Positions 19,333-25,009 of a stretch of 36,880 bases of DNA are shown here, piece by piece. Both the position numbers and the translations under genes were made by a program. Under the pieces are notes generated by a model. That model worked only from the letters and a program-made list of their open reading frames with translations, had not been told where the DNA came from and made no database searches. The stretch is from positions 1 to 36,880 of IMG/VR virus record IMGVR_UViG_3300025418_000656. One strand, 5' to 3'. This DNA is from a virus. The number at the start of each line of letters is the position of its first letter. Positions within the stretch are counted from its first letter, which is position 1.

Positions 19333-20622
19333 ATGCAACAGAAAACTGTAACTCTAGCCCCTGGAGTTTCTGGTGTAATTTTAGTCAGAGCAAAAAAAGT
19401 TGACGCATCTGGCAATATTACCTATTCTGATTATGCTTCCTATAACTATTCATCAACTGGTCTTTCACCAAGTGGCGGGAATACATTAAGCACAAATACT
19501 AATGGCGACGTACTACTTGCTGGTGGTTCAATATATGCTGGAAACTTTCCAAATATAGCTACAGGATCTTTTGATCCATCAGTTAACACAACAACAGGAT
19601 CTGGAGTTGTATTAAATAAATACGGAATAGCTGGGTATAATTCTGGAACACAAGAATTTTATATTAATGCAAGAACTGGTAATGCAATCTTTGCTGGAAA
19701 TGTGTCTAGCAATGCAATTATTAGTGGTGTTCTTGCTTCAGATCTTGTAAACAATGCTGCTGCAGGTTCAGCACTTGTTAGCACAGTTAATACAATATCT
19801 TCAAATTACATAAAAGTTGTTGGAGATCAAATTCAAAATGCTACAGGACAAATAAGTGCAGTTTCTGCTAATGGGACAACTTTTTATTCGGGAAATAGTT
19901 CAAGTTCAGGTGCAAGAGTTGTAATTAATCAATATGGAATTTTAGGTTATAACTCATCAAGCACAGGAGATTTAAACAATATTTCTTTTGCTATAAATTC
20001 AACCTCTTCACCTATAGCGGGATCAAATGTAACAATTCCAGCAGGCTCTGCATATTTTGCAGGACAGATTATATCTACATCTGGTTCAATCGGAGGATGG
20101 AGCCTGGGTAATAATCTAATAAGTTCTTCAGGATCTTATGTATTAACAACATTAAATGCAGCTACAGGAACACTAACTCTTGTAAATAGTGGAGTAAATT
20201 CTGCATACAACACATTAACTTTAGGAGGATCTTCAGTCTCTTCTTCAACTTTTGGTGCATTGATAACTATTACTCAACCAACTTCTGGCTATTCAAGCTT
20301 GGCTATTTATAATCAAGGATACAATAGTGCAATTGTTGGTGTAAACAATACTTCATTTGGAGGAAATTCTTCTATTGCAGTAATTAATAGTTCAACAGAA
20401 AACTCTGTAAAGTTGGCGGGAACAAATATATATTTATACGGTAAATATGGAGGAGATGCAACAAATGGTCACAGTCAAAGTAAATCCTCAGATAGTAGCT
20501 TAACTTTACAATCATCTTCATATTCACAATATACAGCATTAAGAAATACATTCTTATACTCTTCTTGGTCACCTGATAACTCATACGGTAATGATGGTGA
20601 TATAGTATTGGTTTATTCATGA
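19333..20622 (+). CDS. Tail fibre protein with two internal repeats
   Basis: 429 residues; TAGGAGG lies six bases before ATG 19333. The Ser/Asn/Gly-rich sequence contains two related blocks, SGVVLNKYGIAGYNSGTQEF...TGNAIFAG at about 90-134 and GARVVINQYGILGYN...GSAYFAGQIIST at about 193-257, the second followed by SGSIGGWSLG. This GI.GYN...F.I.A.TG.A.FAG pattern is common in phage tail fibre shafts and appears to form trimeric beta structure. The C-terminal part (DGDIVLVYS end) is likely the tip. It shares ATGA (20619-20622) with the next gene. Confidence 0.65.
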   Translation: MQQKTVTLAPGVSGVILVRAKKVDASGNITYSDYASYNYSSTGLSPSGGNTLSTNTNGDVLLAGGSIYAGNFPNIATGSFDPSVNTTTGSGVVLNKYGIAGYNSGTQEFYINARTGNAIFAGNVSSNAIISGVLASDLVNNAAAGSALVSTVNTISSNYIKVVGDQIQNATGQISAVSANGTTFYSGNSSSSGARVVINQYGILGYNSSSTGDLNNISFAINSTSSPIAGSNVTIPAGSAYFAGQIISTSGSIGGWSLGNNLISSSGSYVLTTLNAATGTLTLVNSGVNSAYNTLTLGGSSVSSSTFGALITITQPTSGYSSLAIYNQGYNSAIVGVNNTSFGGNSSIAVINSSTENSVKLAGTNIYLYGKYGGDATNGHSQSKSSDSSLTLQSSSYSQYTALRNTFLYSSWSPDNSYGNDGDIVLVYS

Positions 20623-22427
20623 CAAATTATGTAAATATAAATAATGTTTGGAAATCAATAAGTAAAGTATATGTTAATGTAAACAATGTCTGGAAAAATG
20701 TTAGTTTTGGTTACGTAAATATAAACAATGTGTGGAAACAGTTTTTTACATCTTTATCTTCTTATACTTTTAATTTTGGCAATACTATTTATATAGGAAC
20801 TAACGGTTATGTTTCCCTAGATCAAGGAAATAGCTCAACCAGTATAACTTCAACTGTCGGACGTGTTCTTGGTATATTCCCTCAAGATTTAGTTCAAGAT
20901 TATCTAAGTTATGCGGCAGGAACATCTTATTGGTATGTTTTATGGCAAGGTCACAGATATACTGGTAGTACAGGAACTGCAGAAATTAAACTTGAAATGT
21001 GGTTTCCTAATGGATTAAATTATATTTATGTAAATTATACATTGCCATCTACACTTACACCAACAAATAAGCCAGGAATTTATAATAACGGATCTGCAAT
21101 TGCATCATATTCTAGTTCTTTATCAAGCGGAAATCAACTTATAATTTATTCAACAACTACAGCACCAACAGAAAGTTCATTTTATTTTACTCCAAAAGGC
21201 AATAGTTGGGGTGGCTGGATAAACTTGTCAGGCAGCTCTGGAATTACTAGTGGTTCAACAGATGACGGATATTACACAATGCCCACATTTCAGTCATACT
21301 CTCCATCTGCGCCTACAAGTGTAACAAATTCAAGTGTAGCAAATACAACCGCTACAGTATCTTGGTCAGCACCAACTGATAACGGCGGCTCTCAAATAGT
21401 AAGCTATGATTATTCACTTAATTATGGATCAACTTGGACTTCATCTGGTTTTACTGGTTCAACACCAAACACATCTGTAAATTTGACGGGACTGTCTGGA
21501 GGAACTTCATATACCGTTTATGTAAGAGCAAATAATTATGGCGGTTCAACAGGAACAAATTATGGATCAACTAGCTTTACAACAATATCTGCTCCAGGTG
21601 CTTTTACATATTATATAAGTGATAGCACACCAACTCCATATTGGCCTTCAGGTTCTGGTATAACTATATCTGGACGTTTTGGTGGAAACAATATATTAAG
21701 AGTAACATGGAATGCTGCAGTATATGCATCATCTTATGCAGATAGTGTATCTGGAGTAGCATCAGGAACATATAATGTTGGAAACAATACTTCAGATACT
21801 TGGGGATACAGTTCTTCTGGAAATGAATATGCAACAGTTACTGCATATAATACAAATTGTCAATTTACAATAAGTTGGACAGCATCATCAAATGCAACAA
21901 GTTATTACTATGCTTATCAAATAAATGGATCAACATATAGCGGTACTACTACAGGTACGGCTGTAGTAATAAGTGCTTCAAGTGGCCAAACAATAAATAT
22001 GATTGGTGTTTCAGCATGGACAGGAGCTAATGCGACTGGAACAGGAACAGCAGGAACAGCAGGGTCAAGTTCAGTTACTGTTTCATCAACCAGTACTTCA
22101 TCTTCTGCAGGACCAACCTATGTCACATACGTTGCTGCTGGAGTAGCACCATCAGCACCTTCAGTTAGTGGTGATAATAGTATCACTCCTCATGGCGGAC
22201 ATTTCTATTGGAGTTCAACAGGAACAGCTCCTATTGGTTACGTATTTTCAATTTACTCACCATCTGGAAGTACAGTATACTCTACTTATGGAAGCACTTC
22301 TTCTGCAACAAGCTTTGCCGTTGGAACTGGATACTACACAACTGCAGGAAACTATACAATTTATATTTATGCCTCAAATGCCTACGGAACATCATCAACA
22401 ACAGTATTTAGTCAATATATGTCATAG
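20619..22427 (+). CDS. Tail fibre / receptor-binding candidate with YVNxNNVWK repeats and FN3 domain
   Basis: 602 residues. Residues 4-45 are three tandem 14-residue units (YVNINNVWKSISKV and two variants), a tryptophan-lysine repeat found at the N-terminus of some phage tail proteins. Residues about 46-215 are beta-rich and resemble a lectin-like domain (FNFGNTIYIGTNGYVSLDQG, WFPNGLNYIYVNY). Residues about 229-325 are a clear FN3 domain (VSWSAPTDNGGSQIVSYDYS, YTVYVRANNYG). The rest is Ser/Thr/Gly-rich with further Ig-like repeats and TNCQFTISWTASSNATSY. As the last large fibre gene it is a good candidate for the receptor-binding tip. Extremely rich in Ser, Thr and Tyr. Confidence 0.6.
   Translation: MTNYVNINNVWKSISKVYVNVNNVWKNVSFGYVNINNVWKQFFTSLSSYTFNFGNTIYIGTNGYVSLDQGNSSTSITSTVGRVLGIFPQDLVQDYLSYAAGTSYWYVLWQGHRYTGSTGTAEIKLEMWFPNGLNYIYVNYTLPSTLTPTNKPGIYNNGSAIASYSSSLSSGNQLIIYSTTTAPTESSFYFTPKGNSWGGWINLSGSSGITSGSTDDGYYTMPTFQSYSPSAPTSVTNSSVANTTATVSWSAPTDNGGSQIVSYDYSLNYGSTWTSSGFTGSTPNTSVNLTGLSGGTSYTVYVRANNYGGSTGTNYGSTSFTTISAPGAFTYYISDSTPTPYWPSGSGITISGRFGGNNILRVTWNAAVYASSYADSVSGVASGTYNVGNNTSDTWGYSSSGNEYATVTAYNTNCQFTISWTASSNATSYYYAYQINGSTYSGTTTGTAVVISASSGQTINMIGVSAWTGANATGTGTAGTAGSSSVTVSSTSTSSSAGPTYVTYVAAGVAPSAPSVSGDNSITPHGGHFYWSSTGTAPIGYVFSIYSPSGSTVYSTYGSTSSATSFAVGTGYYTTAGNYTIYIYASNAYGTSSTTVFSQYMS
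20628..20753 (+). repeat. Three tandem 42-base coding repeats
   Basis: Units at 20628-20669, 20670-20711 and 20712-20753 each encode 14 residues of the form YVNxNNVWKxxxxx. The DNA core TAAATATAAAYAATGTnTGGAAA is well kept between units one and three. Unit number could change by slippage or recombination without breaking the frame. Confidence 0.85.
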
Positions 22428-22442
22428 TGAAAGGAATTATAA

Positions 22443-22661
22443 ATGTTAATTGAATTAACTAATGAAGAGAAAATTGATTTAATTAATCATAAAATTAATT
22501 TTTGGCAAGGTCTTATTGACAATGGTGCAAACCTTGTTAAAACACTTACAGAAGCAGGGGCGGAAGCTGAAGAAAAATTATCTCAAGCATTACAAGATAT
22601 TGAAGATCGCAAAGCTAAAATAGCCATGTTGAACCAAGAATTGCAGGGCTTGACTAATTAA
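22443..22661 (+). CDS. Small coiled-coil protein, paralogue of the next gene
   Basis: 72 residues with AAAGGA upstream of ATG 22443. It begins LIELTNEEKIDLINHKINF and continues as a heptad-like helix ending DRKAKIAMLNQELQGL, so it should be a soluble coiled coil. The gene at 22695 starts SIELTNEEKISIINSHKKNL, clearly related in protein and DNA. Small coiled-coil genes behind fibre genes can encode fibre folding or trimerisation helpers (T4 gp57A is the known example), but the similarity here is only of size, position and helix content, so function is unknown. The next promoter's -35 lies inside its last codons. Confidence 0.6.
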   Translation: MLIELTNEEKIDLINHKINFWQGLIDNGANLVKTLTEAGAEAEEKLSQALQDIEDRKAKIAMLNQELQGLTN

Positions 22662-22679
22662 CCTTGTGAATGCTATAAT
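22650..22679 (+). promoter_or_regulatory. Promoter TTGACT-18-TATAAT with extended -10
   Basis: TTGACT at 22650-22655, an 18-base spacer and TATAAT at 22674-22679 preceded by TGC (22671-22673). It is one of the best promoters in the window. Start near 22686 would leave a very short leader at the AAAGGAGG ribosome site (22683-22690). Confidence 0.8.
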
Positions 22680-22694
22680 AAGAAAGGAGGAAAT

Positions 22695-22925
22695 ATGTCA
22701 ATAGAACTAACAAATGAAGAAAAGATTTCAATAATCAATTCTCACAAGAAAAATCTATCTTTAAATCAGTATAACGTACAACTTAACATTAAAGAAGAAA
22801 ATAGTAAAGCTAATCCAGATCAGAATATACTTTCTAATCTAAATAATCAATTAGCAGACCTAGATAAGCAAAATGCTGCACTTGATGCAGAAATTGCTTT
22901 ACTTCCTGCCACACCTACAGCATAA
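22695..22925 (+). CDS. Small coiled-coil protein, second paralogue
   Basis: 76 residues. ATG 22695 has a near-perfect ribosome site AAAGGAGG four bases upstream and its own strong promoter, so it should be made in quantity. The first 20 residues match the gene at 22443; the rest diverges into an Asn/Gln/Lys-rich helix (LNNQLADLDKQNAALDAEIALL) with coiled-coil character and a short Pro/Thr tail. A gene duplication followed by divergence is the simplest explanation. Possible roles are fibre chaperone or minor virion protein; nothing in the sequence decides. Confidence 0.6.
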   Translation: MSIELTNEEKISIINSHKKNLSLNQYNVQLNIKEENSKANPDQNILSNLNNQLADLDKQNAALDAEIALLPATPTA

Positions 22926-22939
22926 TAGAACGGAACATT

Positions 22940-23140
22940 ATGGAAAAAGCGGAATTAATAATTACCGCTCTTCAGCAACGAATTTCCCAAATGGCGGGAG
23001 ATCATGCAATTGAAATTGCTATGCTAAGAGCAGAATTAACAGAGCTAACAAACCAACTAAATGAAATTCAAAACAAAAAGAAAGCTAAGGATGAATATTC
23101 TCAAGAGATTGCAAACAAAATCTCCCCAGAAAATCTATAA
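22940..23140 (+). CDS. Third small coiled-coil protein
   Basis: 66 residues, almost wholly one amphipathic helix (LIITALQQRISQMAGDHAIEIAMLRAELTELTNQLNEIQ) followed by a charged tail. No membrane segment or signal peptide, so it is unlikely to be a spanin. The ribosome site is weak (CGGAACATT before ATG 22940). Its 3' end overlaps the next gene. It does not share the ELTNEEKI start of the two preceding genes. Unknown function; coiled-coil partner or chaperone for the fibre block is a guess from position. Confidence 0.5.
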   Translation: MEKAELIITALQQRISQMAGDHAIEIAMLRAELTELTNQLNEIQNKKKAKDEYSQEIANKISPENL

Positions 23141-23935: not shown

Positions 23936-24196
23936 ATGTACGAACCTATCAAGTTTTGGACAAAACGAGATAGAAGAATCAGCAAAGAAGGATATGTTTT
24001 AGTCAAAGTACCAGAACATCCTAAAAATTTTAAAGGCTGGTATTATGAGCACCGCCTTATAATAGAAAAACAATTAAATAGACTTATTGAAGATTGGGAA
24101 ACTATTCACCATATCAATGAAGACAAAACAGATAATAGATTAATTAATCTGTTTTTATGTTCAAGATTAGAACATAATAAAGCCCACGTTGCTTGA
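23936..24196 (+). CDS. HNH homing endonuclease (free-standing)
   Basis: 86 residues. Motif order is that of HNH_3-type homing endonucleases: YYEHRLIIEKQL (H39), the ETIHHINEDKTDNRLINL core (H58, H59, N61, then D66-N67-R68 and N71), and the closing LEHNKAHV (H80, H84). These nucleases nick or cut a specific site in a related phage that lacks the gene and so spread by repair. It stands alone between the structural half and the DNA-metabolism half, five bases after the lectin-like gene. Its stop codon lies inside the -35 of the next promoter. There is no DNA-binding HTH tail, so it may be a minimal version. Start ATG has no ribosome site. Confidence 0.8.
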   Translation: MYEPIKFWTKRDRRISKEGYVLVKVPEHPKNFKGWYYEHRLIIEKQLNRLIEDWETIHHINEDKTDNRLINLFLCSRLEHNKAHVA

Positions 24197-24222
24197 CAAA
24201 AACTAATACCATACGCTACAAT
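24193..24222 (+). promoter_or_regulatory. Promoter TTGACA-18-TACAAT for the metallophosphoesterase operon
   Basis: Perfect TTGACA at 24193-24198, 18-base spacer, TACAAT at 24217-24222 (preceded by CGC). The -35 includes the TGA stop of the HNH gene (24194-24196). Start near 24229 gives a leader of about 19 bases with AAAAAGGA before ATG 24248. It likely drives the first part of the DNA-metabolism genes. Confidence 0.8.
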
Positions 24223-24247: not shown

Positions 24248-25009
24248 ATGACTAATGATATAAAGTGGATGATGGTGTCGGATATTCATTTCCCCCGCCA
24301 TGATCCAAGAAAAGTAGAACTATTCATGAAGGTTCTAAAATGGTACAAGCCTGATGCAGTAGATCTACTTGGTGATATTGATGATGCAGATTCAACTTCA
24401 CGTTGGGCTGCTGAATATCCCGCAGAGTTTTCTATCCCCGTATCTGACGGTGGAGTAACAGGAACAAGAGATTTCCTTGCAGAAGTTCGCAAGACTGCAG
24501 GGGCGGAAGCTGACATTCACTTCCATGATGGTAATCACGGCTGGACAAGACATGGTGATTATCTTGCAAAGAAAGCTCCAGCATTTCTAGAATTCATTAC
24601 GCCTGATTCACTCTATGAATATAAAAAGCATGGCATTAACTGGCACGAATATAACGAGCCACCTGTTAAACGCTTTGGTGATATGTATGGTCATCATGGC
24701 GAGTCCATTTCCAAGAACGCAGGAGAATCAGTACGTAATGACGTTAACAACTGGGGAGTATCCCTAGTTCGTGGACATTCCCACCGTATGGGAGCCTATT
24801 ATCAGACATACAATATCACGGGTCAAGAACTTCGTGGATATGAGATTGGGCATCTTTGCGATGAGGATAAGATGGATTATTCCATCCAAAAGAATTGGCA
24901 GGCAGGATTTGCGATTGCACACGTTGTAAACGATTATCCACATATGCAGCTAATTCAAATAACACGGGATTATACCTGTGTAGTAGACGGTAAAATCTTT
25001 ACCGCATAA
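24248..25009 (+). CDS. Calcineurin-like metallophosphoesterase
   Basis: 253 residues. All canonical metal-binding motifs of the calcineurin-like phosphoesterase family are present in order: SDIHFP (D12, H14), GDIDD (D43), GNHG in place of GNHD (H97), YGHH (H149/H150) and RGHSHR (H177, H179). These bind two metal ions and hydrolyse phosphoesters; phage members range from nucleases of the SbcD/Mre11 type to small nucleotide phosphatases. It is too short for a complete SbcD, and no SbcC partner is seen, so substrate is open. It is first in its operon behind a consensus promoter, implying early or abundant expression. GNHG instead of GNHD is a tolerated variant in the family. Confidence 0.85.
   Translation: MTNDIKWMMVSDIHFPRHDPRKVELFMKVLKWYKPDAVDLLGDIDDADSTSRWAAEYPAEFSIPVSDGGVTGTRDFLAEVRKTAGAEADIHFHDGNHGWTRHGDYLAKKAPAFLEFITPDSLYEYKKHGINWHEYNEPPVKRFGDMYGHHGESISKNAGESVRNDVNNWGVSLVRGHSHRMGAYYQTYNITGQELRGYEIGHLCDEDKMDYSIQKNWQAGFAIAHVVNDYPHMQLIQITRDYTCVVDGKIFTA

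Follow-up and report, generated by a model that had tools for sequence, protein, structure and literature searches.

What do two small, related genes do directly behind the fibre genes of an uncultured virus? The question is raised by the window analysed here, the whole 36,880-nucleotide stretch of IMG/VR record IMGVR_UViG_3300025418_000656. In it, two small adjacent open reading frames of 72 and 76 residues (A and B) and a third of 66 residues (C) are present on the + strand, as a first-pass annotation had described. That annotation suggested that the set may be fibre-folding helpers matched to different fibre proteins, or minor virion proteins. We think it rather probable that A is a tip-specific assembly helper of the last fibre, exchanged with the tip as a cassette, while B has a tip-independent role. 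The two are not an equal pair, B being part of another unit, one that does not change with the tip.

Gene order and kinship of A and B

The features of the window that are needed below are as follows.

19333..20622, + strand: fibre 1 (name given here), 429 aa, upstream of fibre 2, without a family match
20619..22427, + strand: fibre 2, the last fibre gene, 602 aa, with fn3 at residues 230-310 (PF00041, E 1.5e-8)
22137..22424, + strand: variable C-terminal tip of fibre 2, type I, ending in ..QYMS; the portion tracked by A
22443..22661, + strand: A, 72 aa, helical, type I ('FWQ'), tip-matched, adjoining the last fibre gene
22650..22679, + strand: promoter-like site of B, TTGACT-18-TATAAT with TG before the -10
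22683..22690, + strand: Shine-Dalgarno of B, AAAGGAGG, ahead of the B ATG
22695..22925, + strand: B, 76 aa, paralogue of A, predicted helical hairpin
22940..23140, + strand: C, 66 aa, helical, phrog_10610-like, outside the A/B set

The genes run in the order minor tail gene, 233-, 292-, 429- and 602-aa genes, A, B and C. They are followed by two genes of ~146 aa, HNH, metallophosphoesterase, a holin-like gene, DnaB helicase, primase and SSB. From the stop of fibre 2 to the end of A the window has ~240 nt at most.

The common start of A and B that had been noticed earlier is real. Both proteins begin with MxIELTNEEKI..IN, 35 of the first 48 DNA bases are identical, and of 5000 shuffles of A just 1 equalled the local alignment score of 69. 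An HMM built only on 23 B proteins was run against 36 A and 720 shuffled A sequences and found window A with E 7.8e-8 (28.2 bits), the best shuffle having E 0.011. The homology of window A and B is established, and one HMM takes in both as members. With the B-only HMM, 25 of the 36 A genes fall below E 0.01. The remaining 11 do no better than the best shuffle (L067, L134, L052, L079, L069, L148, L073, L150 and L076; L034 and L044 were not among the matches listed), so what ties them to the family is where they lie, their size and, in some of them, resemblance to other A genes. In two cases the sequence surrounding the A start is similar to that at the B start of another virus (L062 or L063 with L073, 62 nt, 79%; L071 with L063, 70 nt at 77%), a likeness such as a duplication may leave behind.

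That no family could be recognised holds for A and B, as PHROGs, Pfam and NCBIfam returned weak coiled-coil-type matches only. Sequence searches of the PDB with A and B gave generic helical matches only (coiled-coil designs and similar), and comparing the fold of B with the PDB likewise brought up generic helices, with nothing at E <= 0.001. The two proteins are predicted to diverge into different helices, as proposed. AlphaFold2 models of each monomer show one helix at residues 7-71 for A (mean pLDDT 94.5; 16 rows, mixed types) and a hairpin of helices 7-36 and 43-69 for B (mean pLDDT 92.2; 33 rows). Across loci, A has 51-98 aa and B 64-82 aa. Purifying selection acts on A, with dN < dS in 8 of 9 pairs of related loci; the ninth, L003/L004, has one change in A. 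For the L063/L071 pair, dS and dN are 0.738 and 0.149 in A, and 0.569 and 0.062 in B. A spanin or lysis role was considered and rejected, the Rz-like matches falling far short of the cut-offs (E 0.34 for window B, E 0.012 for the B of L063).

Loci related to the window

Uncultured viral contigs were scanned with A, B and alignments of both, which gave 74 loci for study; repeat rows of one contig and L001, which repeats the window, were left out. Most loci were recovered through B. The usual order, found in most of the 74, is fibre 1, fibre 2, a position between the last fibre gene and B that we call the slot, B, and then C or the next gene. In 61 of the 74, the DNA examined contains the end of a fibre-1-like gene. 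We defined A as the single small slot gene that remains after a size and Zn-ribbon filter (45 loci). Dropping near-duplicates left 36 of these for the similarity matrices and reduced the table of tip classes from 73 to 57 loci, L043 being excluded from that table because its fibre lies outside the contig.

The A/B family is present in uncultured aquatic viruses of bacteria. A tblastn search of 50,697 phage records with window A and three B proteins found no credible relative, the best matches being weak and partial (E 0.1 to 1; Enterococcus phage hypothetical proteins and Streptomyces tape measure proteins). Occurrence of the genes in phages without these fibres, which had been named as evidence against a fibre role, was thus not encountered in those records. 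A scan of genome contigs with B produced 161 pattern matches and 0 confirmed ones. Among the literature, judged by titles and abstract openings, no paper was recognised as treating the A/B gene pair.

A follows the tip of the last fibre

The similarity matrix of A correlates with that of the last 110 residues of fibre 2 with r = 0.877 (36 loci, 0/2000 permutations), and with r = 0.836 once B, the backbone gene and fibre 1 are removed (29 loci). The relation is confined to the tip: successive 110-residue windows of fibre 2, counted from the C-terminus, give 0.877, 0.371, 0.195, 0.200 and 0.144, and the N-terminal 110 residues give 0.210. Against the backbone gene (phrog_9440) A has r = 0.022, against the metallophosphoesterase 0.101, and against B a weak 0.261. 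Rank correlations are 0.516 for A with the tip and 0.142 for A with B, lower than the matrix values because most locus pairs are unrelated in both. Leaving out loci found via A, r is 0.844 (30 loci, 0/5000); with both ends of A trimmed, it is 0.865.

Clustering at 0.3/0.3 groups the A proteins into type I (the window, L009, L069), type II (14 loci), type III (4) and type IV (5), with 10 singletons, and tips cluster in the same way except in L075, L056 and L131. The adjusted Rand index between A and tip clusters is 0.944 at this setting and 0.366-0.924 at five others; the clusters depend on thresholds that were set after inspection, whereas the matrix correlations are threshold-free. The match with the tip persists within types, where A proteins are 36-65% identical. 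A scan with type II A returned 15 contigs, 8 known before (7 of which had contributed rows to the query) and 7 new, and 15 of 15 have a type II tip, including the near-duplicates L148 and L150. These two have unusual downstream genes, yet they carry a type II tip, a type II A and a distant B. Scanning with the tip instead of A yielded four loci: the twin contig of the window, L069 and L075 with A, and L002 without it. L002 is an exception, its type I tip being 76% identical to that of the window.

The class of the tip also bears on whether A is present at all. An A-like slot gene accompanies 0 of 16 Cys- or Pro-rich tips and 35 of 41 other tips (Fisher 1.3e-9), or 0 of 16 and 30 of 36 when loci found via A are left out, with Cys-rich taken as at least 4 and Pro-rich as at least 14 in the last 100 residues, cut-offs that were picked after seeing the tips. 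L019, L031, L041, L045 and L081 lack A although their tips are neither Cys- nor Pro-rich. Such coupling of the A gene to the variable tip points to a helper dedicated to that tip.

Tip and A are replaced together

Among 16 pairs of loci with B similarity > 0.75, 8 share both the A and the tip cluster, 8 differ in both and 0 differ in one alone, clusters being those at 0.3 and two of the 'same' pairs having a tip similarity of just 0.19-0.20. L052, L067 and L069 are alike in B (0.89-0.96) and backbone (0.96-0.97) and have three different tips and three different A genes. Both tip and A likewise differ between L016 and each of L010 and L018, and between L073 and L062. In such swap pairs, DNA similarity ends 297-1887 nt ahead of the fibre stop and returns in the last 15-32 nt of A, or 2 nt past A in L062/L073. 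There is thus joint replacement of tip and A, with its cassette border. On the backbone tree (31 loci), 8 changes are needed for A type and 8 for tip type. For type II, the tip follows A in 4 of 4 supported independent contrasts, too few for significance (sign test 0.125).

B probably belongs to the next unit

B behaves differently from A. It correlates at 0.57-0.66 with the N-terminal and stem windows of fibre 2 (42 loci) and at 0.253 with the tip; the values are 0.451 with the backbone gene (39 loci) and 0.445 with the fibre-1 C-terminus (42 loci). B accompanies every tip type met, a presence that is partly by construction, since most loci were found through B. In the 15 contigs found via A, an adjacent B is present in 15, in two of which it is too distant for the HMM cut-off used. 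We considered whether B might be matched to fibre 1, for which a smaller set gave 0.552, or 0.537 with the backbone removed, and the larger set still 0.410. This is not supported, although the remaining 0.410 makes some link conceivable: the N-terminal and stem windows of fibre 2 correlate more (42 loci), so regional linkage is enough to explain the relation. An extra B-like copy lies immediately 3' of B in L019, L025, L053, L054 and L078.

The good ribosome site and the promoter-like sequence ascribed to B were confirmed: AAAGGAGG stands before the ATG, and TTGACT-18-TATAAT scores 11/12 with TG. Promoter-like sites in the window overall are no commoner than in shuffles. Three scans covering the window gave 122 of them, with observed and shuffle-expected numbers of 26/34.9, 56/58.0 and 40/33.8. 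Four of the 122 score 11/12, and of those four the site of B alone has TG. Another site scoring 11/12 lies at 24193-24222, just before the metallophosphoesterase gene at 24248.

That relatives repeat the site ahead of B is better evidence for a promoter than the window score. In 51 distinct regions upstream of B, TATAAT occurs within 45 nt in 43, TGnTATAAT in 39, and this plus a -35 in 33, and GGAGG is found in 42. Upstream of the slot gene the counts are 2/33 for TATAAT and 0/33 for the full promoter, and random 69-mers from the same loci contain a promoter in 18 of 2550. In the window, the -35 of B overlaps the final codons of A (..LTN*); in 14 of 36 loci, among them the window, TTGAC of the -35 falls within the end of A or abuts it (..LTN*, ..LTNQG* and similar). 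As B has its own promoter-like site and the slot gene does not, A probably ends the fibre transcription unit and B begins the next.

C is not part of the set

C is helical and follows B, as described earlier, but it lacks the TNEEK start, and its likeness is to a different family, phrog_10610 (weak for window C, E 0.0017). Streptomyces phages have a DNA polymerase up to 57.2% identical to the window's. Two such phages, Tomas and Daubenski (Stanwilliamsviridae), share with the window C, two ~146-aa genes, HNH, metallophosphoesterase, holin, helicase and primase. Unlike the window, they pass directly from the minor tail gene to C, with no 233-, 292-, 429- or 602-aa genes, A or B between; the fibre genes, A and B are jointly absent there. 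HMMs of B and of the A types found nothing above noise in the two 14-kb loci (best E 0.23). The idea that A, B and C form a single set is therefore rejected, C being kept in Streptomyces phages without A, B and fibre genes at this place.

The suggestion that these proteins are helpers matched to different fibre proteins thus stands for A, as a genetic match to the C-terminal type of the upstream fibre. It is not supported for B, which goes with stem and backbone more than with the tip, or for C, which persists without the fibres. Similarly, the proposed search of relatives for co-occurrence with fibre types links A type to tip type, and B was found with all tip types met.

A proposed helper for the fibre tip and its alternatives

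We propose that A, encoded directly after the fibre and presumably co-transcribed with it, acts during folding or trimerisation of the tip, or caps it. Its helical body, behind the shared TNEEK start, would bind the C-terminal tip as a chaperone. The tips appear often to be FN3-like, judging by a sequence pattern that is only partly a Pfam match. Each tip type having its own A, the two would be exchanged as one cassette. B would be an old paralogue behind its own promoter, whose task does not depend on the tip; it may assist fibres in general.

The leading alternative is that A hitch-hikes and is functionally unlinked to the tip. The first shared DNA 3' of the tip is that of the promoter and ribosome site of B, so recombination there carries any gene in between. 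Adjacency and such recombination would likewise couple tip and A, DNA similarity does resume around the promoter of B, and in the window the end of A is near the fibre stop (about 240 nt). However, A is under purifying selection in 8 of 9 pairs, accompanies 35 of 41 tips in one class and 0 of 16 in the other, and retains its match within types where it is only 36-65% identical and in L148/L150 despite other downstream genes. The slot otherwise holds enzymes suiting the tip. For these reasons we regard hitch-hiking as unlikely. It is somewhat doubtful, though conceivable, that the genes encode minor virion proteins, A being built permanently into the fibre tip as a helical subunit or cap and B being part of another tail structure. 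This would give the same genetic matching, and it accords with the position of the genes at the end of the tail genes and with the long helix of A, predicted with high confidence. The promoter-like site of B, and later genes that include HNH, metallophosphoesterase and helicase, speak against it.

A could also be a host-directed accessory gene, for example for anti-defence or superinfection exclusion, matched to the receptor bound by the tip instead of the tip protein. Genes of this kind often encode small proteins, and tip matching would also result. Nevertheless, A has a common origin with B, a gene that is not matched to the tip, and A lies directly behind the fibre gene, before the promoter-like site of B. 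We consider this explanation very improbable.

A tip-specific helper beside a general one has a precedent in T4, where the 79-residue gp57A is a rather general fibre chaperone and gp38 is specific to gp37 (PMC3004832); in Alteromonas phages, a fibre and its cognate chaperone (V22 gp27, A5 gp9; DUF4376) form a module common to distant phages (PMC10579305). As far as the excerpts of these sources extend, A resembles gp38 and the Alteromonas chaperones in that its gene adjoins a fibre with a variable C-terminus; like a chaperone of this type, it lies directly 3' of that fibre and is matched to it. It differs in being helical and of 51-98 aa, against 176-239 aa for the Alteromonas proteins and 22.3 kDa for gp38. 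PHROGs, Pfam and NCBIfam gave no gp38, Tfa or DUF4376 match for A. By analogy, A probably takes the role of T4 gp38 or Tfa as a different protein. B is like gp57A, as excerpted, in size (64-82 aa against 79 residues) and in its independence of the tip. It is small, helical and indifferent to tip type, as a gp57A-like protein would be, its presence with all tips being partly by construction. B is unlike gp57A in its predicted hairpin and has no match above noise in PHROGs or Pfam, both of which we take to contain gp57A. B may be a general fibre partner in the role of gp57A.

Other slot genes and tip chemistry

Where A is absent, the slot can hold enzymes. Five consecutive Thr stand within the last 150 residues in 6 loci, and 5 of these have a GlcNAc-transferase-like slot gene (the sixth is L053); of the 51 loci without the run, 1 has such a gene (L007). 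In the five (L006, L008, L011, L013, L033), poly-Thr, Cys-rich fibre tips precede the gene, which was assigned by Pfam (PF11397) in L008 and L033 and by likeness in L006, L011 and L013. L033 has an additional radical SAM/SPASM gene.

Tips with the PP-repeat pattern have an oxygenase-like (PF13640) slot gene in 3 of 3 loci (L007, L029, L036), as against 1 of 54 others, L040, whose tip shows a PP repeat by eye. Pro-rich tips of another kind (L053, L066, L080) have no slot oxygenase, and two further oxygenase-like matches (L076, L080) sit downstream of B, outside the slot. Altogether, 2OG-Fe(II) oxygenase-like genes stand behind PP-repeat, Cys-containing tips in L007:11-2996, L029, L036-L040 and L043; L007 has two of them and one GlcNAc-transferase-like gene (PF11397). 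Hydroxylated, glycosylated fibre tips are a possibility here.

Phage prolyl-hydroxylase-like genes as such are already in print. 2OG-Fe(II) oxygenases similar to prolyl hydroxylase are widespread in phages (PMC12774648), and the use of viral P4HA genes has been called 'cryptic' (PMC9301287); the excerpts of these two papers do not tie the enzymes to a fibre tip type.

That tip class goes with slot content suggests that the slot generally holds a factor suiting the tip. It is quite conceivable, if still short of probable, that a 'maturation slot' exists behind the last fibre gene, its content dictated by tip chemistry: a helical helper with FN3-like tips, 2OG-Fe(II) oxygenases (once with a GlcNAc-transferase-like gene) with PP-repeat tips, and GlcNAc-transferase-like genes with poly-Thr tips. 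Tip and factor would be swapped together, in a cassette bordered by a variable part of the fibre on one side and a conserved promoter on the other. With A, the hypervariable fibre tips of uncultured aquatic phages gain a named partner that can be tested. The comparison also makes the cut and join points of tip cassettes visible and draws attention to tips for which hydroxylation and glycosylation are possible. When such fibres are expressed to find their bacterial targets, the matching slot gene may be needed.

Two further kinds of locus were seen. In L031:2680-4938 and L041:1588-4965 the fibre C-termini are Hint/intein-like by eye, that of L041 with a weak Pfam Intein_splicing match (E 0.032), and there is no slot gene. 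L061, L078, L081, L045, L129 and others, whose tips are without A, have a small Zn-ribbon-like slot gene, with a weak DUF6171 match in L061 and L045 and a neighbour of ~74-131 aa in several loci.
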